DNA from: Macrocystis pyrifera
Taxonomy: Eukaryota; Sar; Phaeophyceae; Laminariales; Laminariaceae
Length of the DNA stretch: 64,000 nucleotides
Assembly: GCA_031763025.1 (NCBI GenBank)
Contig: JASSKH010000001.1
Location: 18,143,142-18,207,141 of the forward strand
Reading direction: 5' to 3'
The notes below the pieces were generated by a model. It did not search any database and was not told the origin of the DNA. It saw only the letters and a list, made by a program, of their open reading frames with translations. Below are positions 11,201 through 63,905 of this stretch, piece after piece; positions within the stretch are counted from its first letter, which is position 1; every line of letters starts with the position of its first letter. Both the position numbers and the translations under genes were made by a program.

Positions 11201-14200
11201 TTCAGTTTTTGGGGTATGTACCAGATACACCCCTGGTATGTTCGACTTAAGGCCACGCTGGCACCCAAGCATCTCCTGGTCCCCGGGTTTCCGGTGACTC
11301 TAATATCAATATGTTTTATCGCAACAGAAAAACACATCACCATTGTACACACGCTGCGTTTCGAATTTCGGCTGATTCATGCTTTACCGGAGAGCGACTG
11401 TGACTCGAATAAGGTTCATGGCAGCAGTTTGTGTTACTCTCGAAATTGATCTCCAGCACGATGTCAACAGAGGCCTACACCTCGACTTAGAGGTGCTGGA
11501 GTGGTAGAAATTGGTCGAAATTTGGGGTGCACAAAATGAGACAAAAGACAACCCCCAACTGAATGTTTGCACTTCACTTGCGGACAGCTACATACAGTTC
11601 CTCACAGAAAACTACAGCCCGCAAAATTGAGGGATGCTCCTGATGGGGTGTGTGAGGGCGTCGGGCGCGCCAGACAGCAGTCGTAGGCAGCCAGAAACGT
11701 CTCACGCGGTGTTTTCGTGTACTCCAAGTTGGAAGCGAGCAGCACAAAAAAGCTCGCAAAAACGCTAAAATGTTTCATGTCACGCAAGGGAGCAGTAGCA
11801 CAATGGCCTTCACTAAAACATTGTTCTCTAGGCGGATGATGTATCTCTTTAGTAGTCGTCGTCGAAGATGCTGCGGGAGGAAAACTACCTTCCCATGATG
11901 GGTAGTAAGTTATTGGGCCCAAGAAAGGAAAGAAAAAGGCTAATAAGCTCAGGATTCTTGTAAGATTGCATTAACTATTCTAAATCTACGAAATACGGAC
12001 CTTGGTTGTAATCCCTTCCTCCAATTCCAAGTCGTATGTATATGTTGCCGAAACGCCCACGCGCGGGTACTTGACGCATTCCTGAGGGTGTTATTACGGG
12101 GGACCAAAGTTGATAGGACCTATGACACACACAAAAATCTGTATATTTACCTATTTTTTTACTAGCAATAATTTGGTCATATTTACTACGGTCCCCCGTA
12201 ATAGCGTCCCTTAAACAGAAATCGAAGAAAGAAGAAATACTCCTATTACTGTGCTTACTCGGAGTACAGTGCATCCTACCTTTCTCCATGGTCAGCCTTC
12301 TTATGTTGGACCTTGAGCCTCTTGGAGCCAATCTGGAAGCCGTTCATCTTGCCGATGGCAACCTCAGCCTGGCTAGGGTGGTTGTAGCTCACGAAGCCTG
12401 ATGAGCAAACACGCCATGGTGGGAGCGTCATCGTCAGCAAATACGCCATGAATCTCTGCTATGTGTATGGGACTCGAGAGCGGAACATATGTACGTACGA
12501 CATGTCAAAAATAGACGACGATTACAGCATCGGCCACAGCTGCTTTTGCAGATAGGGTACAGACAGCAGTACACATGATATATAGTAAACTTCAGCCTGG
12601 CGATATGGTGATACTGGACCTGGTACACGCTCTCCTCTCTCTCTAAAAGGGGGGCCATAGTAATACACAGTAACACATACTAGGTGCAGTAATAATCAGG
12701 ACCCACAATGGACCAAAAAACCGCAGACCCCCCTGTGTTTTCACAGGCCGACTTGATTCTGATTATTCTGATTATTCTGACTATTATTGGATGTTCCCCT
12801 GTACTACCGTAGTGTTGCTTGATCAGACCACACTCGTCGAGTTTTGGTCGCGAAGCTATAATCAAGATATACGGGTCCCAAGTGGTTGTAAGATGCAGGA
12901 GACCGCACTTTGACCACGTCGGTCACCGCTGCCAACGCTAAAACCAGTACTGTAAGGTCAAAATAGGCGTTGACGTGCGGTTTGGCCCCTTGAATGACCG
13001 CCCTTACAATACAACCAGTATACTAAGGTCAAAATAGGCCTTGACGTGCGGTTTGGCCCCTTGACTGACCACTGCCTACACTACACTATAACCAGTATCA
13101 AGTCAAAATTGACGTGCGGTTAGGTCCCACGAGCGACCGGTCCTACACTATAACTAGTATAATAAGGTCAAAATAGGCTTTGACGGGTTCCTTGACTGAC
13201 CGCCCCTGCACTACAACCAGTATAATAAGGTCAAAATAGGCCTTGACGTGCCTTTTGACTGACTGGCCCTAGACAGTAAGCAGTATAACAAGGCCAAAAA
13301 TATTAATAGTGTCTTTGACCGCGACAGTTGCAGGCGTTTCACGACATGTGCCTATCCCCAAATCATGGAGATACATCTTCGCGTTCGGGCGAGGTACTCG
13401 TAGGAAATATTTTAATAGAATACTATCAATATAAAATATTAGCACTATCAACACGTACCGAAACCGCTCTTATTTTCTGACAGAATGGTACGGCCTGGGC
13501 CCTTCTCGAAAGGGAAATTTACAGCAATACGGTAGTGAATGAATCCGAGTGTCGAACACATTGTCGGCGCTCACCGAATCCCTTGCTCTCGCCGGTGCGC
13601 TTGTCGAGGAACACCTTGGCGCTCACCACGTGTCCGAACGGCGCAAAAGCAGTCGCCAGGTCGGCATCCGTGAGGTCGTTCGGCAAGTGGTAGATGAACA
13701 AGTTTGCGCCCGGCGGCCCTTGAAAACGACAACACAACGCCAACCTTTGTTACACAAGTTGCACACGGTTGCAGTTAAATATATGGTATACATGTGCGAC
13801 ATAAAAATATGGTACATCTACATATGGAACGGCATCAAACTGAAGTTTTGGTACTTGCGGCATTAAAATACTTCACATCAAAATACGGGACGGATTTACA
13901 GAAGCATTGTAAGACGTTGAAAGACGGCATACTATCAAACTATGGTGCAGACGAATTTGGTACAGTACGAGAAGAAAAAAAAAATGATTTTGAGCGTATA
14001 CGAAGCGGATGTGGAAGCAAGAGTCATGGCCAAGCACGACAACAAGCAGTCGCAAAAGGTGGTCTAAGGGTCTTAAGCATGACAAACGCAAAAGTTTTTC
14101 AACCACGTCGACGGTTGCGGCCACTACAACTACTGTCACCGCTACGGCACGAAACGCGGGTAAGTTGTAAATGCCATCCATGGCAGGTGGTACGGTTCCG

Positions 14201-17200
14201 ATTCCCACCATGGTTGCTAAAATGATTACTACAGTACAATGCAGTACAGCAACACACCGACAAATGGTTGACGATGACAACGGATAGCAAACGGTTGACG
14301 ATATCAACGGATAGCATCACAACGGCAACGGGCGGTTACAAGCAAGAGAATGAAACGGGTCGTGCTCCAACCAAACAATTCAGACCGAGATTGAAATCGC
14401 GGTTGGCCTCGAGATTATCCAGATCGCGATGCAAACTTATATCGAAATTTCCTACCCACCCATGCGAGTGGTAGATAAATGAACGCACAACGCCAAAAAT
14501 TCATGGTCATGGGGTTCAATTCAAGGCAGCAGTGACACCTGCAGCAGCTACAGCTACAATCTACGGGTACATTATAATACAAACGCAGTGACAGGTACCG
14601 TATTCACGGGCAATAACATCCACAGTTACATCTACGGTACTGCCTTCCTAAGGGTTACAGCAAGCATGCGTGCATTGTCCACACCGATGGACGCCCGCTT
14701 TCAGTTTCTCCGTGAAAACTCGGTAAAATACACCCTACACAGCAAAGCACAACACAACAAAGAACATGACGCGACTCAAGCCAACCCAACCGCATCAACA
14801 ACACAGACGGAACACAAAACAAAAAATGCAACCCAACCCCACCCAATTCAAAACCAATACGAGATGTCATGCACTACAAGGTACCTGGTACAACATACCA
14901 AAACACAACAAAATACAAGGCAACCAAAATACATTGCCCGTGCAGCACGAGTCGAACACGCAGTGGCCGTGGGCAGCGAACGGCGAAGCCCTTTATCCGT
15001 CTATGGCATCTACAACCGACAACTCAAGACACCAACACACACCCAACCCATCAAACACCCCTGGCCCTAAATCAACCAACCACGAAATCAACCATCTGTC
15101 CAACCATGAAAAAGTCGTCAACTTCGTACTGTGGCCAATCAACCAATCATCCAAGTGACCAAGCAAGACCGATGAGTCAACGAGCCAACCCGTCTATCGC
15201 GCGTGCATGCTCATCACGCCCACGCACGCACCCGCCCCCCCCGTCCGCCAAAGCTAGCGAAACAAAGAACGCTCTCCCGATTCGATTCCCTCGAGCAGAA
15301 ATATAGAACGGGGGCACATTGATCTAACCTGACACGACCACTCAGCCACGCTTGTCTCGAGCCTCAAGTCTTGGATTGGAGAAAGCCCCCTATGTATATA
15401 TCACCCTATACGTAATATACGTTGGGAGTGCTGCGTGCATCCCCACAACGCGGGGCGTAGTTCTCAAAAAGCTTTTGCAACTCTAATCTTGAAGCAGTTT
15501 TTTTGTTTATCCGGATACAGTTTCTAAAACGTTTTCGTAATCTGCTTTCAAGCAGCGTGCATGTCTGTCCCCTAAACGTTGACGCAGTTCTAACGCGGTT
15601 CAGCTCTTACTCCCAGCACTTTGTCGCCAAAACTCCGATGCAGTTCTAAATCCGGAGAGGTTAACTTAACCCTGGTACAGTAGCACCGCACTGCACACGT
15701 ACTCAACTACTACTAAAACTTCAACTTTTTCGTCTCCACCACGGGACGGCAGTACTATCAACAACAGCAGTGTTAAGTCAACTCTAATCCCAAGTATTAA
15801 TACTTTAGTTTCGTGACCCAAACATGGACATAGTTTTTCGAGGTTTTCCGACTATATTTCCAGCAAGAGTGTCTCCCCAAAACTTGTTTGCAGTTTCGAA
15901 GGGGTCACAATAGCCCCCAAATTCTACGTACGAGCAGGTAGTTTTTTTTTCGCCCCCCAAAGCATGGGGCACAGTTTTGAAGACATTGACTCTGGTTCCA
16001 ACAAGTTTGGCAGTGGTTTGGATTCTCCCCAAAACTTGGGTCCAGTTTTGAAGGCGTTGACTCTATTTCCAAGCAGTACTCTTGTTCGTACCCCGAAAAG
16101 AGGGTGCAGTATTGAAAAGAGTCAACTCTAAATCCCAGTACTCTTGTCCCCAAAACTTGGGGTCCAGTTCTCAAGGAGATAACTCTGAATCCAAGTAGTT
16201 TCTTTTGGCCCCAAGACTTGGATGCAGTTTCGGAGCGGCCGACTCTAATTTCAAGTAGTTTAGTTTGGTTTGTACTCAGAACAAGGGAGCGAGCGGTACT
16301 ACAGGGGTTCAACTCTACTCTAATTCCCAGTAGTTTGGCTTGGCTTGGCCCCAAAACGTCGTGTTGCACGCGTGATCAAACTCAACTTCTGCTTCTAAAG
16401 GTATCAGCCCCAAAACCAAAAGGTGGGCGGAGGTGCGGTTGGGAAGGGGATTATCCTTGGTTGAAACGGTCGGTTTCAACCCCCTAAAGCGGTACTATTT
16501 ATATTATTTATATTAATAGTATATATACCTCGTATTACGTGTAATACTTACGAGCATATCTCCTTGTTGGAAAAAAACTAGTGTAACAAGAACGCCATGG
16601 ACTTGCGTCTCGGGTTACGCCCCCCTTCCCCCCCCCCCCCACAAAAAAAACATTGGGCGGCCTGGTCTAGAAAGTAAAAACTAAAGGGCAGAGGAGTTGT
16701 GGTGGCGGGCGGCAAACATCATAAACCAGGCAAACATAAACGTCTCTCCCTATCCTATGAGTACAGCAGGTGGGTGGGTGGGTGGGTGACTGAACTCAGG
16801 TGTTGGGGAACAACCTACATCGTGTTTAGGGATAACAACGAACTTGTTTTAAACTCCAAAACACCATCCCAAACATCGTAGCTGCCGGTACTCAAATTCC
16901 AAAGTGTTTCGTCCTCTAATTGCGGGTGTAGTGATCAAGGCGTTCCAGGCGAAAAATAAACCACGAGCGTCGTTGGTTGAAGCAAAAGAGTCAAACAGTC
17001 TTCACCAATTCCAAATATTGGGGACAGCCATTCCTCCCTCCCCTGCCTGGTCAGTGAAAACCCGACGTGCTCCGTCCCGGCATTGCAGGGATGCGAGGGT
17101 CTAAGGTCATATGACTACTGTACGGCCACGCATAACATGAGTACACTCCCCCACCACCGTCACCCCAGCGCCCTACCTTCTTGCGGCCTGGTCCCCCCTC

Positions 17201-19875: not shown

Positions 19876-22800
19876 GAGGAGGGTTGAGGACGGTAAGCAA
19901 GCTCGAAGCGACCGAGGGTACTACACCACATCACACCGCACTGCATTCTGCGCACAAAACTCGACGACGCAACACATAGATGATAGATGATACGAGCTTA
20001 CCCTGCACCAAATGGCGCGGAGTTTTCTGCTGCACTACACTAACCACATCACACTGCATTCAACAATATTATCTAACAGAGCTCTTGACGGGTCGTGACC
20101 TGACCCGTGAGTCGGGTCAATATTTTGAACTCTCACGGGTCGGGTCGGGTCGGGTGGGGTCAGGAGGTCTCTAAACTCTCGCCTATCGGGCCGGGTCACC
20201 CATATGTGACCCAACCCCACCCGCGAGGTTCGACCCGACCCGTGAACAGGCCTGACTGCACAGCTGGTATACACTACCGGTATACCACACGCCACAACAC
20301 TGAACTACACACTACACACAACTACAGCACTTCCTGCCCTCTCTTGAGTGCTCGAGCAGTTCGCGCAGGCCAAGCTCTTCTACTACTGTGTTATTCAGTC
20401 CGGTCATGCCCCCCTCTTCAAACATCCCTACCACGAGAACAAAGCCCGATCAATCGCGCACAAAAAATAGATGAGAAAAACCATACCAAATGCAGATGAA
20501 CCTATAATATGGCAAACTGAAACAAACAAAACGGAATAAACAGATGATATTTTCCCCCAAGAGATGGAGCAAACAGCCCCTCCCCCCTGAAAAAATAAAC
20601 GAACGAAAAAAAAAGGAAACGCCTTCCAACCCCAACAAAGCACTCTGCACAAAAACGGCCAGAGGATCCAAAAAAACAACTCACGTTCTTTGGCGTAAAC
20701 ATTTTTTGTAAAAAAACAAAAACAAAAAAAACAGTGAACCACAAAAACACAAAACAACGGAAGAGAAACAACGATAAAACGAAAACAAAAGTGAGAAAAA
20801 ACGAAGCAAATCTGTGGACGATTCCCAACCCCCCAACTATTAATTACAAAGCATCCACTTCTACTACAAACTCCATACCACGCCATGTCAAAAGTAAATA
20901 ATACCTGATACTGGTACGGCGCAGGGTACACGTCCCGCCCCTTAGGGTAGACATCGCGAGCGCCGCCGCCACCGCCCCCTCCCCCGCCAGGCGGAGCTGT
21001 GGCCTGCCAGTAGTTGCCTTGGCGCATCCCCCCCCCGTTGAACCCGATCGGCGACGCCCCCCTCACGTCCGGCACGAGCCAGCCCTTTGCCGTGTGCGTC
21101 TTCTTTACGTCAGCAAATTTGACCACCAACGCACGGGTTGCTCCCTACGACGAGGCGTCATCAGCGAACGGGGGGGGGGGTGGTACATGAATGGACCCAT
21201 TCGTACGGGAGACAACTGTATTATAGTTCAATTAGGTACCGACAAATAGATGTGCTTGATGAGAAAGATTCGTAGAGCAGAATACGTCCGTTAGCGAGGG
21301 AGGTTGGATCCGTAGGGCAAAATAGGTTCGTACGGTAAAAAGATCCGCAAAGTAGAACAGATCCGTACATCCGTACGGTAAAAACAGATCCAGACGGTAG
21401 AATAGATCCGTCGTACAAGTACGGCAGAGGTAACATACTTGGTATTAATAGGTTCGTATAAGCGGTAGAAAATATTCGGACGGATGTTGAATTACACCAG
21501 TAGGCGTGTGCACTCGTAGTAGGTGTGGTGTGGCGTTGACAAAACATGCTATTACACTGAGACCCCTTGACTAGTCGCCCCGCACCCTACAAACAGCAGT
21601 ATGTAAACCAGGGCCGACAGAAGTCTTGACGCGCCCAAAATGGCCTCTCCGGCGTGTGACTGATCGCCCGCTACACCGACGAGACAAAATAGGCCTTGAC
21701 GCGTCCGATATCGGGACTCTCCCGCGTATAGCAACAGATTTCGTACGTGACTGACCGCCTCACACACTAAAACCAGTATGCTCAGGACCAACTAGGCCTT
21801 GACCGCGGCCAAAAAGACGTTTTCGGTGTGTGACTGACCGACCCCACGCTAAAACCAGTACACGGCCGCAATAGTCCTTGACACGTCAACCAAGACACCT
21901 GTGATGTGACTGACCGCCTCCACACCAACACCATATACTACGGCCCAAATAGTCCTTGACGCGTCAAAAAACCCCGCGGTTTGACCCCTTGACTGACCGC
22001 CCCCGGGCAACACTAGCAGCAGTACTACACGGCCAAAACAGGTATTGACGCGAAAAAAAAAACGGTCTAGCAACGAGTACAGCAGCAGCACCCTTCGGTG
22101 TCTAACTGACCGCTTCCTTACATGTAGGAGTAACAAAACCTCTATACCTCGTACAATATAAGGAAGGCCACAATACCGTCTCCTGATATTAAAAGGTCTC
22201 CTTGGGTGTGTGACTGACCTCCATGGTGCACTTTTCGTGAAGAGCTTCGATGGCGGAGATGGCGGCGCTTCGAGTCGAGAATTTGACGAAAGCGCATCCT
22301 TTCGGGGTGCCGTCCGGGTTGCGCATGCAGTAGATCTGACCGAAAAAAAAAGACACAAGGAGAGGGAGTCGCCCATAAGTTCCAAGAGCAAGCAACACGC
22401 AACTTTGCAGGCACCCAAGTAAGCAAAACCTATTGACAACCCCTGAGCTGTGCAACGGGTCAGCCAGCATGGGAAGCGACTCCGAGGGCAAAACATGCAA
22501 GCAAGCACATGTGCTGGCCGGCCCAGAGCAGATGCTATCACGGGGGACCATAGTAAATGGGACCAAAATTTGTTTAGAAAAAATAGGGAAATATATAGGT
22601 TTTTGTGTGTACCGCAGGTCCTATTTACTATGGTTCTCTGTAATATTAATAGAGTAATCAGTAGGGACGTACTGGACAGCAGTAGTGACGCAATAGTTAG
22701 TGCCTGCCGCCGCTGCTGTACCAGGTACCAGGCACGCCTTTTCAAGCAATAACAAAACCGCACGCCGAACCACTGACGCGCCCGTCAGACAAAAAGGCGT

Positions 22801-25800
22801 AGCACTCCGAACAACCACCTCGTACGAAAAATGGTGAAACGGAAAATTACGGCACGTAACCTACAGTAATAGCAAAATTACGGCACGTAACCTACAGTAA
22901 TAGCAAAATTACGGCACGTAACCAGCAACGAAGGACCTAGCCAACTACAGCAGGATACCAGGTAAAGCAACTAATACCGTATTCCGTACGCAGCAAGAGC
23001 GTTGACTTCGCTGCACAGGGTAGGGTGCGGTCGATTTCACCAGACCGGGAAGGTCAAGGTTGCCAATACCGAACAACCAGTACCGAACAACCAATACCGA
23101 TAAACAATAAAAATGTGTTTTCGGAAAGATCTGACAAGAGAGACTTCCGAAAAAATACTGTTCGACCTCCTGTAGGAGCATTATTGGTTTGTAGGACTGC
23201 AGTCCCGTTTCGGTGACTAAGTACTTGGGATTTGACTGATTTGTCCACACACTCCCAAAACGCGAGAGCAGCCAAACTATTATTACCAACAGCGCTGAAA
23301 AAACGACTGCTTTACCCCTGTGAGCTAGCTCAGCGCTCTTACTCCTTACGGTAGCTGCTAGCTACAGTAGTAACAGTAGCCGTACGTGGCTGTCGACAAG
23401 CAGCGTCCTTGCCGCTTCTTCAACCCTACCAAGTACTACTATTGACAAAAGAGATATACAAGCTGTGTCGCCACAAAACTACGCCAGAGATACTACGACT
23501 ATACTACTACGAGTATACTACACTGCTGTCGTGCAGCAAGCAGAGTACACGACGGAATGTCATGTTCATCGTACTTGAACACACACAAAAACGACGATTG
23601 ACCTTCGATCTCGACATATAATCCACCCACGGTCAACGAGCTTGGTACCGGGCAAGGCCAACGAGTGTAAATTATGGCCTGGGAGGTATAATTGGAATCC
23701 GTGGTCTAGGGGGCGAGAGGTTGGCCGCGGCGTCCTATGCTCTTCGTCAAAGCTTTCAAAATTTTCTGTTTCGTGCCAACGGAGAGGAATCGAGAGTTTT
23801 TGTCGTCTGTTTTCTACACCAGCTGCCAAATATGTTTCTAGTAGACGCCTGGCCCACCCACGACACATATCACCGACCGAGGTGTGAGAACTGTGATACT
23901 AGTGTGGGTCGGAGCCTCTAACCTGTGCGCTTCATTCAGAGTTCGTGACGTAATCGTTGGGTTTGTCGATCCATGTCAAACCCCAAAATTGTCTATTTTT
24001 TGCCATCGGAGAGGGGTAGAGTTTTTTTTGTCGTCTGTCTTCTACAGACCAGTCTCAAAATGTTTTTTTATCAGACGCCTGGTCAGCCCACGCCACATAT
24101 CACCGACCGAGGTGTGAGCACTGTGACACTAGGCTGGGTCGGAGACCTTAACCAGCGCATTCCGTTCAGATTTCATGACGGTGACGTTGGTTTTGTCGAT
24201 CGATGTCTGCCGAGGATTCTCAGAAAAGTTGGCTCTAGTCAATGGGAATGACTATACATTGCTCCAGTACCTGCCAGAACTGGGGTTTTATATACATTGC
24301 GCGGCGCGCAAATAAAGTCCGCGAAAGCTGTCCCGTGACGTATAAAATTTGCCAGGCAGTTATATAGGTAGTACCCCCAATGCTGTTTCTGGAAGTGGCG
24401 GTGCCCACACCGTGCAATAAATGAATTAATTGAAGCTGTCATCCATGTCAGTCCGCCTCACAAGCGGTTCTTAGTATTATAGGATGCAACTCACCCTTCA
24501 CGCGACTCGCCGAACACCTCACGGCGCTTCGCGCTTGATGCAAGCAATGCCTGCCTGGTCGGTGAAAACCCGACGTGCTCCGTCCCGGCATTGTAGGGAT
24601 GCCAGGGTCTATCGTATGGTCATATGACTACACCCCTGCACGATATCGAGCAAACCCCTTCCCTTCCGTGATGGGATACAGGAATGGTATACTACTATTA
24701 ATAGGGTGTATAGCAGTACCTCGGGACAGGCAATTTAGGTGGTCTTATCTCTGTATGATCTTATCTTCTACTGCTCAAACAATTATCCCATACAGATACA
24801 ATTTCCGACTATTCCTAGTAGTTTTTTTTCTCGTGATAGGTGTTATCCACCCGAAAGTTTCCAAGTTTCAAACCGGAGAATATCATTCCTACTTGATACT
24901 TCATATAGCAGCGTCGTGCTCATGTGTGTTACTTCACATCAAACCGCTCTTACATCGACATCCCAGCACACCCAGTCAGCGTCCGTGCCGATCCATCTAC
25001 AAGTAGCAGATATTGACGGTTTAGCCCTCCTAGAACAAACTGGAGATGACCGGCCCGATGTACATGCTAGCAATCCAGATGCGCTCGAAAGAAAAAAGTC
25101 GTCCATGTAACCGGTTTAGAACCGCACCCCCTACGTGTTTGGGGATCAAAAAGATGTAATTGATGTCGGCCATTTTTCAAGTGGTAGAACTGAAAGAACT
25201 ACCAGGTACCAATATTGAATATACTGCTGTACTATAAACCATTTCCGGAAATGTAAGCGCGGTTTGGGTATCACATCAATACTCCAGGGTTCCTTACATT
25301 CCCGCAGAGAGTGGTTAACAGGTACAAGACAGCTAGCAGTAAGTGGTGTCGTACGTTTCAGAGATCAACGACGGTGATGACGTTGCTGATACATGTTCGA
25401 ACGAACAATCAAACACACACAAAACAAAAAAAATGAACGCACAAAAACCGAGCTGAGAAATAGTGAAATCGTTTTTGTAATCAAAACTCCATTTGGTGTA
25501 TTTGTAGTGATATAGTAGTGATACTTCGATAGCCCGTGCAATATAAGGGTGTATAGCCTGTAGCGGTAGGTTTTAGAATGGATGTAGTGATGACCTTGTG
25601 TGTGTCGTCTCCACATTGAACCGTTATTTCTACCCAACTATTAATAGAACACCAGTAAACCCAGTATCATAGCCGTCCTGATCCCTTCTCCTAGAGAGAT
25701 ACTAATAGCATTAATACTGCAGTTCTGAGTCTGTGAGAGAGAAAAACAAGAAAAAAAAATATTGTAGTCGCAACTAAAAACGTAAATCACGTAAAAACGC

Positions 25801-28800
25801 CAACGTACTGGGTACGACAACATAATTACACAAGCCAGATGAAACGAAAAACAACAAAACAGAACGATATAATTATGGAATGATGATGACGTTGCAAGTT
25901 AGCAATAGTAGTACTATTGATAAGTGTTGACGATGACGACAACAACCAGAAGATCACACCGAAGGCGACCATGACGACCATAATAATCATACAACCATGA
26001 CAAAAAAGAACACCGCCACAACGACGGCGATGATGACCATGATGACCATCACGACAACAAAGCAGCTACATGGTGCAGTATAGCCGCAGCCCACGCAAAA
26101 ATATCGTATTTGCGGGCGTCTTGAGGAAATTACATTGTGCAGGCGAGCTGCTCTTTGCACCCTGACCGGTGAGGTAGGTTCCTGGGATCTGGGTGGCTGG
26201 TGGGCCTCCAGCGGCTTCTCTCCGGAGGATTGATTGTAATTCAGCAGTGCAGGGTGCCAGATGGGAAGGGCCCACTGCGGGGTTAAAGCACTAAGCGGGA
26301 GCAGGGTGTGCCTGCGCGAGTTTTTTTTCTCAGCCGCCTTCAATAGTAATTGGGTCGGGAGTCTATGCCCCATCAGCAGCACTACAACAACAAGCGCAGG
26401 CTCTTCTTCGAGCACGGACGAAAAAGGGCCCAACACCCACCCATACGCATATGACGCCACCAAACAACATTGCAACTGGCGACTGCTCACAGGTAAATCT
26501 GGTGAACAAAAGCCGGTAGTCAACACCAGGTACTGATAGTATTACGAGTAGACTCATTACGTTCGGTTACGAATAAACTTATTAACAGCAATAGTACCAC
26601 TCCAACAGAAAAAAACAAATGCTGTACTCGTACTAGGAATACGTAGGCCGTACATGCATGCTTTGTGTTGAGCGCTATTCATAGGCCAACTTCGATACTA
26701 ATGCTGTGCGGCCTAGCCTGCAACGACCGACCTGACAGGACTGACCTCTGTGATTTCTCCGAAGCCAGAGAACACCTCCGTAAGCGTCATGTCGTCCGCA
26801 TCGTGCGGCAGCATCCCCACGAAGAGTTTGTTTTCACGGTCCACCGGGGCTACGCGGGCGTTAGGCCCTACCGTACCCCCAAACACCAAAACATGACATA
26901 CCGTGGCACGATACCATACCACAACATCGTAGCGTAACACCGTAGCATACCACCGTACAGTAAGACGGCCATACCGGAACACACCGCACGAAACGCGAAG
27001 ACAGCGAAAGCAAGGGGAGTTGACGGGATTACTGGCGCTGGACAAGGCATCGTACACAGGCGAGGGACGTTGCAGCGTGTGTTGCTAACGTGGCACAACA
27101 CAACACACCGTAGCATGAAAATACAGCAGTACGCATCGTATGTATAGCACAACACCACACAGAACTAGCAAAAGCCCCCGGAGCGTGCAACGGCTTGAGA
27201 GAGGGGCTGCACTCTTGCGCCAAAAAAATGTCACTGAGACAGGTGCTATTGATACCTACAGTAATGTTCTGATGTCCTCATGTCCTCATGTCCTAATGTC
27301 CTAATGTCCTTGGATCCCATGCATATACTTTCAATGCTTCAATACCTTTCATTGCACACCGAACCCATGGTCACATCGCGTATCGGGATTATGCTTACAA
27401 TATTGATATTTCCCCCCCCCAGACACAGTTGTTGGATGAAACAAATAGGAGTCTCACAAAAAAAAAAGGCGTTACGAACCCGTACAGTAGCCGAACGTCG
27501 TAGCATAGCGCCGTCGAGTAAGACATCCGTAGCGTAATAACACCGACAGACAACGCGGGGAAATAGAAACCAACGGAGGTGGACGAGATACTGGCGAGGG
27601 ACAAGGCATCATCCACAGCCGAGAGACGTTGTTGCATGGTCGCGTAAAGGGCTAAACGGTACGTCGTCGTTGCGTCGCACTCACCATCTCAACCGACCGA
27701 CCCTGAGACATCAAAAGGAAACATTAACAACCGCGCCTGGGGGTATGTGTATTCACCCGACAAGATGCGTGACCTACTGCTGTAATTGTCTCCCTACCTC
27801 TTAACTCAGGGCCACTCCGGTCGTCATTCATTCAATACACAAAACCGTTGGAATATGACCGTTGACACTTCCAACCGCTCTCACATCTCCGTGCAAGAGC
27901 GAAGGACAGCAAGTTTCAACCCTCAAGACTCACGGGGCAAAATATCTGTTGGACTACTGCTGTATATACCGCAAGTAGGTAGGTTGTGCACAAGCACCAA
28001 AAGGTATACTTGAAGAGCGTTGAGTTTGAACAAGGGTGGCTGCGATCGTTTTTCAGTGCTCCAATTTTCCAGAACGGGAAGGCTAGGGATACCACCACCG
28101 AACAGCATTAACCCTTTTAGAGCTGCGGTCATGTTTGGGGACGATCCAGTCTAATTCCAAGTAGGTTGTCCCTCAAACGGGACTGCACTCCTACAGCAGC
28201 AGCGAAATGCTCAAGGTGTTTTTCGGAAAAAAATCTGGTCCACGAGCCTTCCGAAAATATAGCGTTCGACTTTAGTAGCACCCTTTTCCGTTCTTCAAGC
28301 CTTTTAGGACTGCGGTTCCGTGTTTGAGGACAATTGGAGACAAATTGCTTGGAACTTGGGTGCTTTATCCCCCAATCGGGACTGCAGCAGTTTTTGAGGA
28401 GTTGAAGAGAAACTATCGATACCGCTGAAAAACCAGCGCACCCCTTTACTCCTTACGGTACCTACACGACGACCATCAAACACCGGTACGCCAAAAGTAC
28501 GGTAATGAGGAGCACCGCGGTCTTCTCTCTTGGCCTGAATAAACTATCTTTAGTGGAGGCAAGCGGTCAGGCAAGTAGTCAAAACGCGGTCTTCTTTTTA
28601 GACCTGAATATCCTGTTTTAGTGTAGGCGAGCGGTCAGGCAAGGAGTCAAACCGCGGTCTCCTCTGTCGGCTTGAATATACTAATTTTAGTGTAAGAGAG
28701 CGGTCAGTCAAGGAGTCACACCGCGGCCTCCTCTTTTGGCCTTGATATACTATTTTTAGTGTACGAGAGCGGTCAGTCAAGGAGTCAAACCGCGGTCTCC

Positions 28801-31800
28801 TCTTTAAGCCTTGATATATTACTTTTAGTGTAGGAGAGCGGTCAAAGAGGATAAACCGCGGTCTCCTCGCATATTTAACGGCCAGCGCCTCGTCATCGCC
28901 AACGGCTGACTGGTTGTTTCAGTGATCGACACATTGCTCAATTGGTTGATCGATCGATTGGTTGATTTACCATAATTGGTTGATTGGAAAATTGAACATT
29001 GACGTGCAGATGGATGGGCAGATGGATGGAGAACATGTTGGACTGATAAAAAAAAACGAAACAGCTATTGTATGGACGCATGGGTGACGGGACAGCAGTT
29101 TGCGGGAGCTTTCGATGCATTGATGGGTGACTTTCACGAATTTAGTTGACGCAAGACAACAACATTGGCTAACAACTGATGGGCGAACGGATGAGATGGA
29201 ATGATTGTCGATTGTCGGGTGGGCAGATGATAGATAGATCGATGAATGAGTGGTTGGATTAAGTGGATCATGAGGCGACAACTCAAGCTCACCCAGTCGG
29301 TCGTCTCCCATCTGAGAGTCTGCCGGTCTTACTTGTACAGGATTGTGTGCCTGCAAGCAAGCGTCAGCGTGGGGGCGAGAAGGCGAGCGTGCACGACGTG
29401 CAAAGGTAGCGAAGCAGGGGCGTATATACGTCAAGACAAGTATGCCATGTTCCTACTGCAATCAACCCACGATCATCCAAAATCTTGCAGAAAATAACAA
29501 AATCCCACAGCATCTAAAAGCGATGAAGCAGAAGCAGAAGCAGTAGCGGAGGAAGCAACGCCCCCTCCCCCTCCGCGGGAAGACAAGAACCGCCGACCTT
29601 CGCCCTCGCGGCTGTGAGTGACGTGTGTGATATTCCGTGCGCCACGTCGCCTCTGAACGCAACCATTGCATCAACCAATCATATTTGGCAACAAACTCGA
29701 TTCTACTTCCTTCCCTCCGTCACTCAACACCAGCCCTCAGTCCAATGCCAACAACTTAGTAGTCTAACTGCTAATGCTGAAACAACAAAGCTCTTAGCAT
29801 CCAACATCACTGATCTATAAATAATCAAAGCATTTTTTCATCCTTTATTCGTTGTATCGCACCACCTACCGGGCACGGAAACACCTCGATACAGCTGCAG
29901 CAGTATCGATCCTCTCCCGTCACAAAAAAACTCGAAAGAAAGCACCGGCCATCAGGATACTTAATACTTGCAGCAGGTAGTACTGGTTCTGGTAGTACAC
30001 GTATTCAAAACCGCTTCTCTTCACATCAAAAACCTCAGTATCAATAATCTTACGAAGCATCAACACACCAACGCCCTCGGTTCCTTATGACACTTATGAT
30101 ACCGTCAACTGTACCATAGGCTGTCCCACAGTAATACAAAGTATATTACCAGGTACCTATTAATAGTAAGCAGAACCCACGATATGCCCAAAAGCCATGT
30201 ATCACAATATTTAGTTATATGAATAATAAACACAATATTTAGTTATCATTACTTACATATACCTGATATATATTACATGTTCTCCCGCTATAAAGGAGAC
30301 CGCGGTTTGACCCCGTGACTGACCGACCCCCTTGAAAAACCGCCCCTTACACTATTGATAATCCAGTACAGCAAGGACACTATAGATAGACCTTCAGGGG
30401 CCCCAAAATATCGGCCTCCTACTCCAATCTGGTCCGCGAATATAATCACCGTTTGGGCGCTGTTATGTAATCAAACGGATCTTATATCCTCGGCCAGAGT
30501 GGTGCCTATTTTACCGTTGGTTTTCGTGAGACATGAGGCCTCTCCGCTCGGGCCACAACTTGCGTGAAAACGTGAAAACGTGCGTCAACCACTTTTCTAC
30601 CAACCATTCAGGCTTTAGAACCCAGCATGCAATTCATTCAGACTGCGAATATACGCAGCAGCAGCAGAGCTCACCTTACATCTCGAGAAAATGGTTGACA
30701 CGCACTGTGTACTGCTGTGTGTACTGAGACCGGGACAAGGGACTGACTTGACGCTAGCCAATTGTTGATTGGGTCCGATTGGCTTGGCGTTAGGGTTACA
30801 GCAGTATTATTAATAATTGGTCATGCTCGTCTCTCTCGTACACACTGACCCTCAACCATTGTATCGTACTAATAATAGGTGCCAGTCTCGTCAACCGTCA
30901 ACACAAGCGACCACCATCAACAGATGCCCACAACATGCTATTAAGAAAGTACCTTGCATCTACGTTTTCAACTGGTAAGCTGGGGCGCTACAACGTGCAG
31001 TTGCTAGGTACACTGGAGACTGACACCGCTGCGTTAGCTGTGGGCAGCGATTCCACCGTCAAATGCAATGGGGGAGGGGGGGAGGGAGGCTCAACAACGG
31101 CAAGCAAAACCGACAAGCAATAGCGGCAAACAACTGCGAGGAACCAAGGCAATGAGACATAAGACATGATACACAGCCCAAATGTTTGGCGAAGAGGGCA
31201 GAGCGGATACGGCTTCACAACGACAAAACGTTCCAATTTTTCGCTGCAACCAGTCAACTCTCTTATTCGCGTGTTGCACAGAAATAAAAAAAAAAACGAC
31301 TCCAAATTCAAAGCAAAACGTCCACAAACGGGAGCGCAGTCCTACGAAACCGGGTCAAATCAACCCCCAAGCTTCACGCTTCAAAAACCAAGTTCCGCGC
31401 TTCGCTTCCGCCCTCAACGTGCCTCCCCCAAAGCTACACGTTCAAGCTTCATACACACGCCGAAAAACGTTCGATGCTCCGTTCTGCTGCTTCAGCCTCT
31501 GCCTCCCATGACGCGTGTGCATATTTCGGAGGACCATAGTAAATAGGACCCACGATACACACAAAACCCTATATATTTTCCTATTTTTACTCACAATACG
31601 GGGTCCTATTTACTAGGGTCCCCCGTCGTTGCACTACATAGGAACACTTAATATTAAATAATAGTTGATCAGAACCCACGCCACGATCACCAAAACAACA
31701 AGTATCCCCCAATGTTTAGGGCCCACCTGAACGGGGAACACTAAATTTCGTTCCATCAGATGCAAATTGAATTAGGGAAAAAAAATCAAGTCAAATTGAA

Positions 31801-34264
31801 AGAGCCGAAAGTCCTCGATAAGATTGACCCTTAAATTAAATTAGAAAAAAAAATCAAGTCAAATTGAAAGAGCCGAAAGTCCCCGTTAAGATGGGCCCTT
31901 ACACACAACATTTGGTTCTGGTTCCAGTGGTTACCCCGACTCAAGACAGGTGCGGTGCACGCCGCAAGCGCCTCTCTTAACTATTACGGGGGTACATAGT
32001 TAATAGGACCTATGGTATACATTAAAACCTATATATTTACCTATTTTTACTAACAAAATTTGGTCCCGTTAACTATGGACCCCGTAATAGTCTTCTCTCT
32101 TTTCCACAGCGGGAAACACATTAGCTCTTTCGTGTAGGCGAGAGTTCAGTCGATTTGGCCTCTGCTAACGGTACTGCTCTCTTGTTGATATTGAGTGTTC
32201 CTCTCTTAGGCCGGGATATGTACCCACGGTACACTGTACTATGTCCCCCCGTTCCAGTCCGGGTCAGTGCTCGCGCGTGCGAGTTGCTGTTTGATGCACG
32301 TATGCGGGCGTGGTCGAAGAAGGCCAGTGCCTAGTGGCACACGAGGCAAACAACCTAAAAACACGGACTACTACTGTCCCGCCAAACTAAAGCCGTCTGT
32401 GCGAGAATATGCCCCCAAACAAAACCGGTGCACCGAGCCCGCGAGACTGCCTGCTGCAGGTCTCGCCTTATGAGTGCGCAAAACAAGCAAAACTGCGGAA
32501 TCAGGCGTACGAGGTGCAAGCACAGCCAGTGCATAAGTTAATCAGACATTGAGCAGTGCCGGTACAGGCTCTACGGTACTCTGGTTGGTAGCTGTGTTTA
32601 CTCATCGGCACTCTGCGCACCCAGTGTCCGTTCTTAATATTCCCCTTAATAATGGTTAAGAAACGCCCGATATAAGGCCACCAACTCCGAGACAGAGTTA
32701 AGTTCTGAACAGGAACCAACTGCTCAGAGCGCCTAGCGTAAGGTAGGCGCAATTCAACTAAGACGAGAGTCGACGAGGGAAGAAAATGCTGGACCCTTCC
32801 CGCCATAAAAAAATGCAAGCCACAAACCGTGGTGGGCGGGAGGGAGAAGAAAGAACATACCATGTGACTGCGGATCTGAGTTACTATTACGGGGGACCAT
32901 ACGTAGTAAGTAGGACCCAACGGTACACGCAAAAACCTATCTATTTGCTATTTTTACAACCAATATTTGGCCCTATTTACTATGGTCTCCCGTAATAATA
33001 ATTACGACTATGAACAGGAGGGAGAGAAAGCAAAGAGGGGGAAAAACAAACTAAAAAAAAGTACACTCGGTGCCCTGATTCCAAGAAATTACGATAAAAA
33101 TCAACCAACGCAGTGCCCCGCGTGCTTGATACTAGAAGAGCACGTTATGCGCACAACAGAATAGGCTACAATGAATACGAGTGTGTCCGGTACTCACGTT
33201 TGGAAGCTTGACCTTATTGTGGAATTTTGTCCACGGCTCGTTCGCCAGCTTCTCGTGTTTGATACGTCAGAAAAGCACATCCTGTAGCGGGCACAGGCGA
33301 CGTCGACGATCAACGGCCATGCCTTAGAAACACATGAAAAAAAAATCAATACACCAATGCCTGGGAGACAATGCACCTAAAATACGTACGAGGTGACTGG
33401 TACGAGGTGACTGGTACTGCTCACGACGAGCACGGACGTAAGGATAACAGAAATTTTAAACAGCCCCAAAAAACGGACATGACCAACAGATACGGGAAAC
33501 ACAAACAAGAACCAGGCGCAAGAAACAGCCACAACACAGCAAGGTACACGCGAGTAAACAAGAGGATTTTTACCGGACGAAACAAATAAATCACAAGAAA
33601 CAGCCAGCACACGACACGCTACGAGGCAAAGTAAAGTACCCGGTAAAACGGGAGGCGTTTAAGCAAAAACGCAAAAATACACCCGTAACAAACAGACACA
33701 AGAAACGGACATAGGACACGTACACAAGAAACAGACATGAGAAACAGCCACAGCACGAGACGACACGAAGCGAGCGAGAAAACAACATACATACGGGCGA
33801 TCACCGAAGAGGTTGCGGAGCCACGAACACAATCAGTGAGAGTACGTGCAGTCAGTGACCGTACTATACAGACAGTATACAGACAGCACAGGGGACCATA
33901 CTAATCAGGAGCACCATGATAGACACAAAAAACTACATATTCCAGTAATTCCAATATCAATAGGCATATTGGACTCTGGAACCACCTTGTATGTATTACT
34001 ATGTTCCGCCGTGAAGGTGTGCATCAGCATCAGCATCAGCATCAGCACCACTGCCAGTATCATCACCAATACCAATACTACTACCAGTAGACTACAAATA
34101 GTGGGGGTATGAGCTGGAGCACAGTTTGAGTTTAATGGGCATGAATGATGCCCGAGCCCGATCAGCGCAAGGTTTTCGCTCACTCCGATATGACAATGTC
34201 ACCATGCCACAGCAGTGCCACAGCAGTATCACAATGTTGCCATACGACATGTCGCCACGACGGT

Positions 34265-63104: not shown

Positions 63105-63905
63105 CAATACTCTGGGAGACGACGGTTTGACTTCCTTGACTGACCGCTGTCCTACACTAAAAATATAACATTAAGCCCGAAGGAGGAGACCGCGGTCTGA
63201 TCCCCTTGACTGACCACTCTCATACACTTAAAGTAGTATACGAAGCCTGAAAGAGGAGACCGCGGTCTGACCCCTTTGACTGACCGCTCTACTACATTAA
63301 AACCAGTACATTAAGCCCGAAAGAGAAGACGGCGGTTTGACCTCCTGATTGACCGCTCTCCTACACTAAGACTGGTATATTAAGGCTGACAGAAGAGACC
63401 GCGGTTTGATCCCCTTGACTGACTGATCTCCTACACTAAAAGTAGTACGTTAAGCCCGAAAGAGGAACCCGCAGTTTGACCCCTTGACTGACCGCTTTCC
63501 TACGCTAAAACCTGCGTATTAAGCGCGAAAGAGAGAATGGTGGTTTGATCCTCGTAACTGACTGCTCTCCTACACTAAAATTAGTATAACAAGCCCGAAA
63601 GAGGAGACCGCGGCTTGATCTCCTTGACTGACCGCTCTCCTACACTAAAAATAGTACATAAAGCTCGAAGGAGGAGACCGCGGTCTGATCCCCTTTAATG
63701 ACCGCTCTCCTACACTAAAACTAGTACATTAAGCCGGAAAGAGGAGACCACGGTTTGATCCCTTGACTGAACGCTCTCCTACACTAAAAAAAGTACGGTA
63801 CATTAAAGCCAAAAGAGGCCCTGACGTGCCCAAAACGATCACCCGTTACACTAAAACTACTCTACGAGTATTTAGTATATTACAGCATTTTTTAGTACAT
63901 TAAGC
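63105..63905. repeat. ~70-bp tandem array D (about 10 units)
   Basis: GAGGAGACCGCGGT recurs at about 63188, 63258, 63328, 63397, 63467 and onward, giving a 69-70 bp period. Units also have CTTGACTGACCGCTCTCCTA and CTAAAA.TAGTA. The most regular array of the family, outside the gene. Confidence 0.92.

Follow-up and report, generated by a model that had tools for sequence, protein, structure and literature searches.

The closest described precedent is the human IFI6 gene (6-16, G1P3), in which a minisatellite is described as the source of multiple splice donors (Turri et al. 1995, cited in PMC4526556). Two further systems link repeats or duplications to introns: introners (Gozashti et al. 2022, PMC9860276), whose families are presented as consisting of similar whole introns, and the potato RdRp gene, given as a case of intron gain by tandem genomic duplication (PMC4974935). 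The locus analysed here, within a 64,000-nucleotide stretch of Macrocystis pyrifera DNA (the window), resembles the first in that units of a tandem repeat may act as splice donors, the second in that a repeated sequence is able to carry splice signals and the third in that tandem duplication is tied to introns. In the potato model, new splice sites reportedly come from duplicated coding sequence, whereas at our locus the exon tail bears no match to the array. Introners, as characterised in the introner paper cited, differ from the present case, which involves a tandem array within an intron and a family found also upstream and in antisense; within the window its copies are head-to-tail arrays or a fragment, none of them a whole intron. 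IFI6 thus offers a precedent for a repeat-derived donor, although its units are reported, in the description cited, as used alternative donors, while here the terminal copy alone appears to be used and internal donor use would meet a stop. A donor supplied by a repeat is an already known sort of event and not a new kind of intron. A literature search combining introner elements and brown algae returned no paper, to which we attach little weight.

One gene was recognisable in the scanned parts of the window, encoding a CELF/Bruno-like RNA-binding protein on the minus strand and spanning ~43 kb (55.1 kb down to 12.3 kb) with large introns. Pfam was searched in three frames at 10-40 kb and 49-64 kb on the minus strand, at 1-10 kb on both strands and at 54-64 kb on the plus strand, and in one frame only at 49-64 kb on the plus strand; the RRM_1 matches belong to this gene, and all others fell below the curated cut-offs. 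With some RRM pieces taken from RRM_1 matches and other exons and RRM pieces read by eye from the reading frames, the gene displays the order RRM1-RRM2-linker-RRM3 with a CELF-type RRM2. Joined over both introns, RRM2 aligned without gaps to the RRM2 of the solved CELF2 and CELF1 proteins, its best matches in the PDB (best E 3.6e-33), which supports the exon border after ...CTME and the start of the next exon as mapped (Table 1). CELF proteins are described as acting in alternative splicing (PMC8537729), and the gene product is probably a splicing regulator. Rfam gave no match at gathering scores within the window, and a literature search on the age of the RRM2 intron position found no exon map of CELF genes. 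In the RRM1b exon (33198-33281), the reading frame changes near 33220, with HNKVKLPN falling in the second frame, which points to an error in the assembly or to damage in the gene.

Table 1 Features at the CELF-like locus and of the repeats around it (positions within the window; a slash marks the border between exon and intron).
Feature	Position	Strand	Basis or remark
Donor word GGTCAGTCACACACC, last exon base and 14 intron bases	22205..22219	-	exact copy at 21825-21839
Identical copy of the donor word inside the intron, at the core of a unit of array B	21825..21839	-	sequence match
Array A, six units, donor-like word in gene sense, RRM3a-RRM3b intron	12898..13299	-	nhmmer, TRF
Array B, degenerate units	21566..22219	-	core and unit comparisons; missed by Tandem Repeats Finder
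Array C, five units, donor-like sense on the plus strand	28526..28867	+	nhmmer, TRF
Array D, ten units, ~8 kb before the first identified coding exon	63115..63815	-	nhmmer, TRF
Single family fragment, another intron of the gene	30294..30335	-	nhmmer, E 1.3e-8
CELF-like RRM2 second-half exon, 39 codons, IYCMRNPDG...CTME	22219..22335	-	translation and PDB alignment
Intron after the RRM2 exon, up to the next exon	21145..22218	-	in-frame stop at codon 10 without donor use
Next exon after the RRM2 intron, donor CAG/GTATTA	20905..21144	-	frames and PDB alignment
RRM2a exon (...GEITE), donor GAG/GTCAGTCCTG	26746..26849	-	no family match by profile
Copies of the ~110-bp element	9736, 12092, 22535, 31522, 31982, 32885, 35100, 36600, 37177, 41935, 49726, 60597		

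The second-half exon of RRM2 opens after the acceptor CGGTCAG/ and ends at the donor ATGGAG/GTCAGTCACACACC, with base 22219 as its final base. The original prediction held that units of the array filling the downstream intron contain the complement of this donor sequence. Indeed, the last exon base and the first 14 intron bases, GGTCAGTCACACACC, recur exactly on the minus strand within that intron, as the core of a repeat unit. When up to two mismatches were allowed, the word had five sites in the window, four of them in the RRM2 intron (the donor and three others) and one at 16781, as compared to a window-wide shuffle expectation of 0.16 on average and 2 at most. With up to three mismatches, six of the eight sites in the window fell in array B, the donor itself counted. 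Likewise, GGTCAGT in transcript sense was present five times in the 1.07-kb RRM2 intron (donor excluded), twice in each of two introns and in none of the other five. The longest local match among the seven other mapped donors was 10 bases. Among 1220 minus-strand GGT positions examined, 15 (~1.2%) had a local exact match of at least 15 bases, as did 263 of 20000 random positions; a 15-base local match is thus roughly a 1% event per site, with eight donors examined. By sequence comparison, the predicted donor of the exon, its junction backed by the CELF alignment, is at the same time a word of the repeat unit. As an observation apart, GGTCAG stands on both flanks of the exon, in the acceptor CGGTCAG/ATC at 22335 and in the donor GAG/GTCAGTC at 22219.

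The array in this intron belongs to a wider family. An nhmmer search of the window, using a profile of 18 units drawn from arrays A, C and D, recovered these three arrays and one fragment; array C was opposite in orientation to the gene, as had been predicted for one of the arrays. Exact family patterns had no match in the viral and the bacterial and archaeal collections. Tandem Repeats Finder reported arrays A, C and D and missed array B, whose cores (plus-strand positions 21656, 21747, 21830, 21906, 21989, 22102 and 22210, with a decayed core placed at 21566) are irregularly spaced at 76-113. Applied to array B, the same profile matched the unit at 21974-22038 strongly (E 2.4e-10), two others at E 6.4e-6 and 6.6e-4 and some further units marginally. 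Given that Tandem Repeats Finder missed it and that most of its matches to the profile are weak, array B is the most decayed of the arrays. Six of its unit bodies are still mutually related (z 4.4 to 10.6), and the decayed unit at 21566 showed similarity not above shuffles (z 0.27).

Whether the donor lies inside the last unit of the array, as originally predicted, can be affirmed, by sequence, for the first 15 bases of the donor segment, which are clearly shared; the remaining 93 match the units weakly and yield no local signal. As a whole, the 108-base donor segment scored 37 against the rest of the array in a Smith-Waterman alignment, and 3 of 500 shuffles did as well. Bases 16-108 on their own, however, reached a local score of 22, which 284 of 500 shuffles equalled or exceeded (their mean was 22.6), and with the first 15 bases held fixed, 202 of 1000 shuffles were as good. 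A global test of bases 16-108 gave a weak signal (z 2.7, none of 300 shuffles as good). The donor copy escaped the profile of arrays A, C and D even at E up to 10, and the donor segment gave no match to a profile made from the other six B units, which themselves score 12.7-40.1 bits when left out in turn. On the exon side, the tail of the RRM2 exon scored 15 against the array, with a shuffle mean of 18.1 and 463 of 500 shuffles as good. As judged from these alignments, similarity to the array ends at the exon border. Such an ending is expected if the protein holds the exon in place and the repeat took over the edge of the intron, and would also result from a chance match of the donor word.

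The balance of these comparisons inclines towards a repeat-derived donor. As to the specific course of events, we rate at slightly better than even the chance that the donor was supplied or overwritten by an old ~70-bp minisatellite family, by way of the decayed array in the RRM2 intron. A dispersed, ageing family with the core GGTCAGTCAAGG (donor-like sense) populates introns of the CELF-like gene and its upstream region; a strongly decayed array would extend to the exon border in an intron presumably older than the array itself; and the final exon G with the first 14 intron bases would be the array's own core word. The repeat would thus have supplied or overwritten the working 5′ splice site, through recruitment, unequal exchange or conversion. 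The terminal copy would be spliced, joining RRM2 in frame, while the internal copies, probably idle, would persist as latent or decoy donors whose use leads to an in-frame stop at codon 10. This course is supported by the exact 15-base match, set against the chance mean of 0.16 sites at up to two mismatches, by the concentration of GGTCAGT in the RRM2 intron, by the junction E/G, which matches RRM2 of CELF1 and CELF2 ungapped, by the occurrence of the family elsewhere, away from the RRM2 border, together with the halt of similarity at the exon, and by the stop on read-through. Of the two directions of descent initially proposed, recruitment of the splice site from the repeat fits the wider presence of the family and the limit at the exon, whereas the same points weigh against growth of the array from the splice site. 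Should the donor be repeat-derived, a dispersed minisatellite would have replaced a splice signal that a conserved gene depends on, and the gene would have stayed intact; the case also carries a prediction on the use of internal donors in a gene whose product is probably a splicing regulator.

The main alternative is coincidence, i.e. that an ordinary GTCAGT donor merely resembles the core of the array and the first segment of the intron is not homologous to the repeat. The eight mapped donors, a set that may be incomplete as the 7-kb linker intron may hide further exons, read GTGGGT, GTGAGA, GTGAGT, GTGAGC, GTCAGT (RRM2a), GTCAGT (RRM2), GTATTA and GTGAGC. RRM2a and RRM2 share GAG/GTCAGTC, in agreement with the original prediction, and GTCAGT accounts for two of the eight. 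The RRM2a donor and the family core have an 8-base word only in common, and no array is attached at RRM2a, which argues that donors of the form GTCAGTC may just be common in this organism. Since the donor segment beyond its 15 bases is only weakly unit-like, a chance or convergent donor-shaped word might arise in a repeat-rich intron, and the rate of such local matches at GGT positions, with eight donors examined, likewise speaks against recruitment. On the other hand, the match runs on through ACACACC, the form found in array B, the sites with up to three mismatches cluster in that array, and the segment has a weak global similarity to the units. We regard coincidence as unlikely, yet as an alternative to be taken seriously.

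A separate observation concerns how well the cores of array B are kept. In a gapped comparison that left the donor copy out and involved few units, the B core TGACTGACC (plus strand) was conserved at 0.85 and the rest of the unit at 0.64 (ratio 1.33, bootstrap 1.15-1.50), but six of the seven B units compared were placed by their core, a bias in its favour, and the same aligner gives 0.58 to unrelated sequence with only the core in common, so that 0.64 is little higher. The corresponding ratios were 0.93 for A, 1.11 for C (bootstrap 0.99-1.24) and 1.08 for D (0.96-1.23). These figures replace those of an ungapped comparison (A 1.48, B 2.13, C 1.09, D 1.14), which handles the flanks of A and B poorly on account of their indels. 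The splice-like signals within the units point the same way: in array B, the acceptor-like TAG was kept in 4 of 8 units and GGTCAGT in 6 of 8 (4/7 and 5/7 without the donor copy), whereas array D reverses this pattern (TAG 9/10, GGTCAGT 5/10). Selection might therefore have kept the B cores as decoy or alternative U1 donors. Given the stop at codon 10, internal donor use would yield an mRNA whose coding sequence stops a little beyond the RRM2 exon, making such use regulatory or harmful rather than a coding alternative, and stop-bearing mRNA could conceivably control the dosage of the CELF-like protein. With the core clearly better conserved than the remainder in array B alone, but with the bias of unit placement and a bootstrap range that overlaps those of C and D, we hold such selection to be quite improbable, and read the better-kept core as a hint at decoy donors rather than as a finding. 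Little credence goes to the fuller proposal that the B cores form a selected bank of U1-binding decoys tuning CELF-like splicing, the terminal copy serving as the real donor and internal copies giving stop-containing mRNAs.

The reverse direction of descent, in which the array grew out of the splice site by tandem duplication, would account for the identity of the donor word and one unit over 15 bases. However, the exon tail has no match to the array, which makes growth from a segment across the border improbable, and the family also occurs in other introns, in antisense and some 8 kb ahead of the first identified coding exon. This origin is very unlikely.

Finally, the original prediction had placed an acceptor-like TTTTAGTGTAG shortly before a donor-like GGTCAGTC in each unit, so that the period would resemble a mini-intron with both borders. 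Counting any TAG in a 12-base stretch at the expected position as acceptor-like, and including the donor copy, which is preceded by exon sequence, we found TAG in 23 of 29 units, GGTCAGT in 15 and both in only 10 (A 2/6, B 2/8, C 2/5, D 4/10). The acceptor-like part was kept least in array B, the very array attached to the donor, which, with the joint count, argues that the period does not consistently form a mini-intron. That the repeat period is an introner-like element with its own donor and acceptor is hardly credible and was rejected: TTTTAGTGTAG or a near form does stand a few bases ahead of the core in many D and C units, but the two signals coincide in a minority of units and the copies in the window form head-to-tail arrays or a fragment, intronic or upstream, with one array antisense and none constituting a whole intron.

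A hairpin function of the repeat was also considered. The plus-strand consensus of the array D units contains a hairpin, GGAGAccGCGGT...ACCGCTCTCC, and array C units show one of this type by eye. Among the seven sequences folded as RNA, this consensus beat its shuffles (z -2.7), with a leaning the same way for one C unit (z -1.9) and for the donor segment (z -1.5); z was -0.06 for the gene-sense consensus, -0.24 for an A unit and -0.5 and 1.0 for two B units, none of which stood out from shuffles. The candidate was dropped, most of the seven not going beyond shuffles.

Two other repeats were seen in the window. A partly self-complementary element of ~110 bp, which we take to be MITE-like, has 12 copies across it, one of them 200 bp upstream of the RRM2 exon. 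A second dispersed family lies at 24369, 41400, 58731, 59200 and 61540, its matches spanning ~140-520 bp at 75-85% identity.
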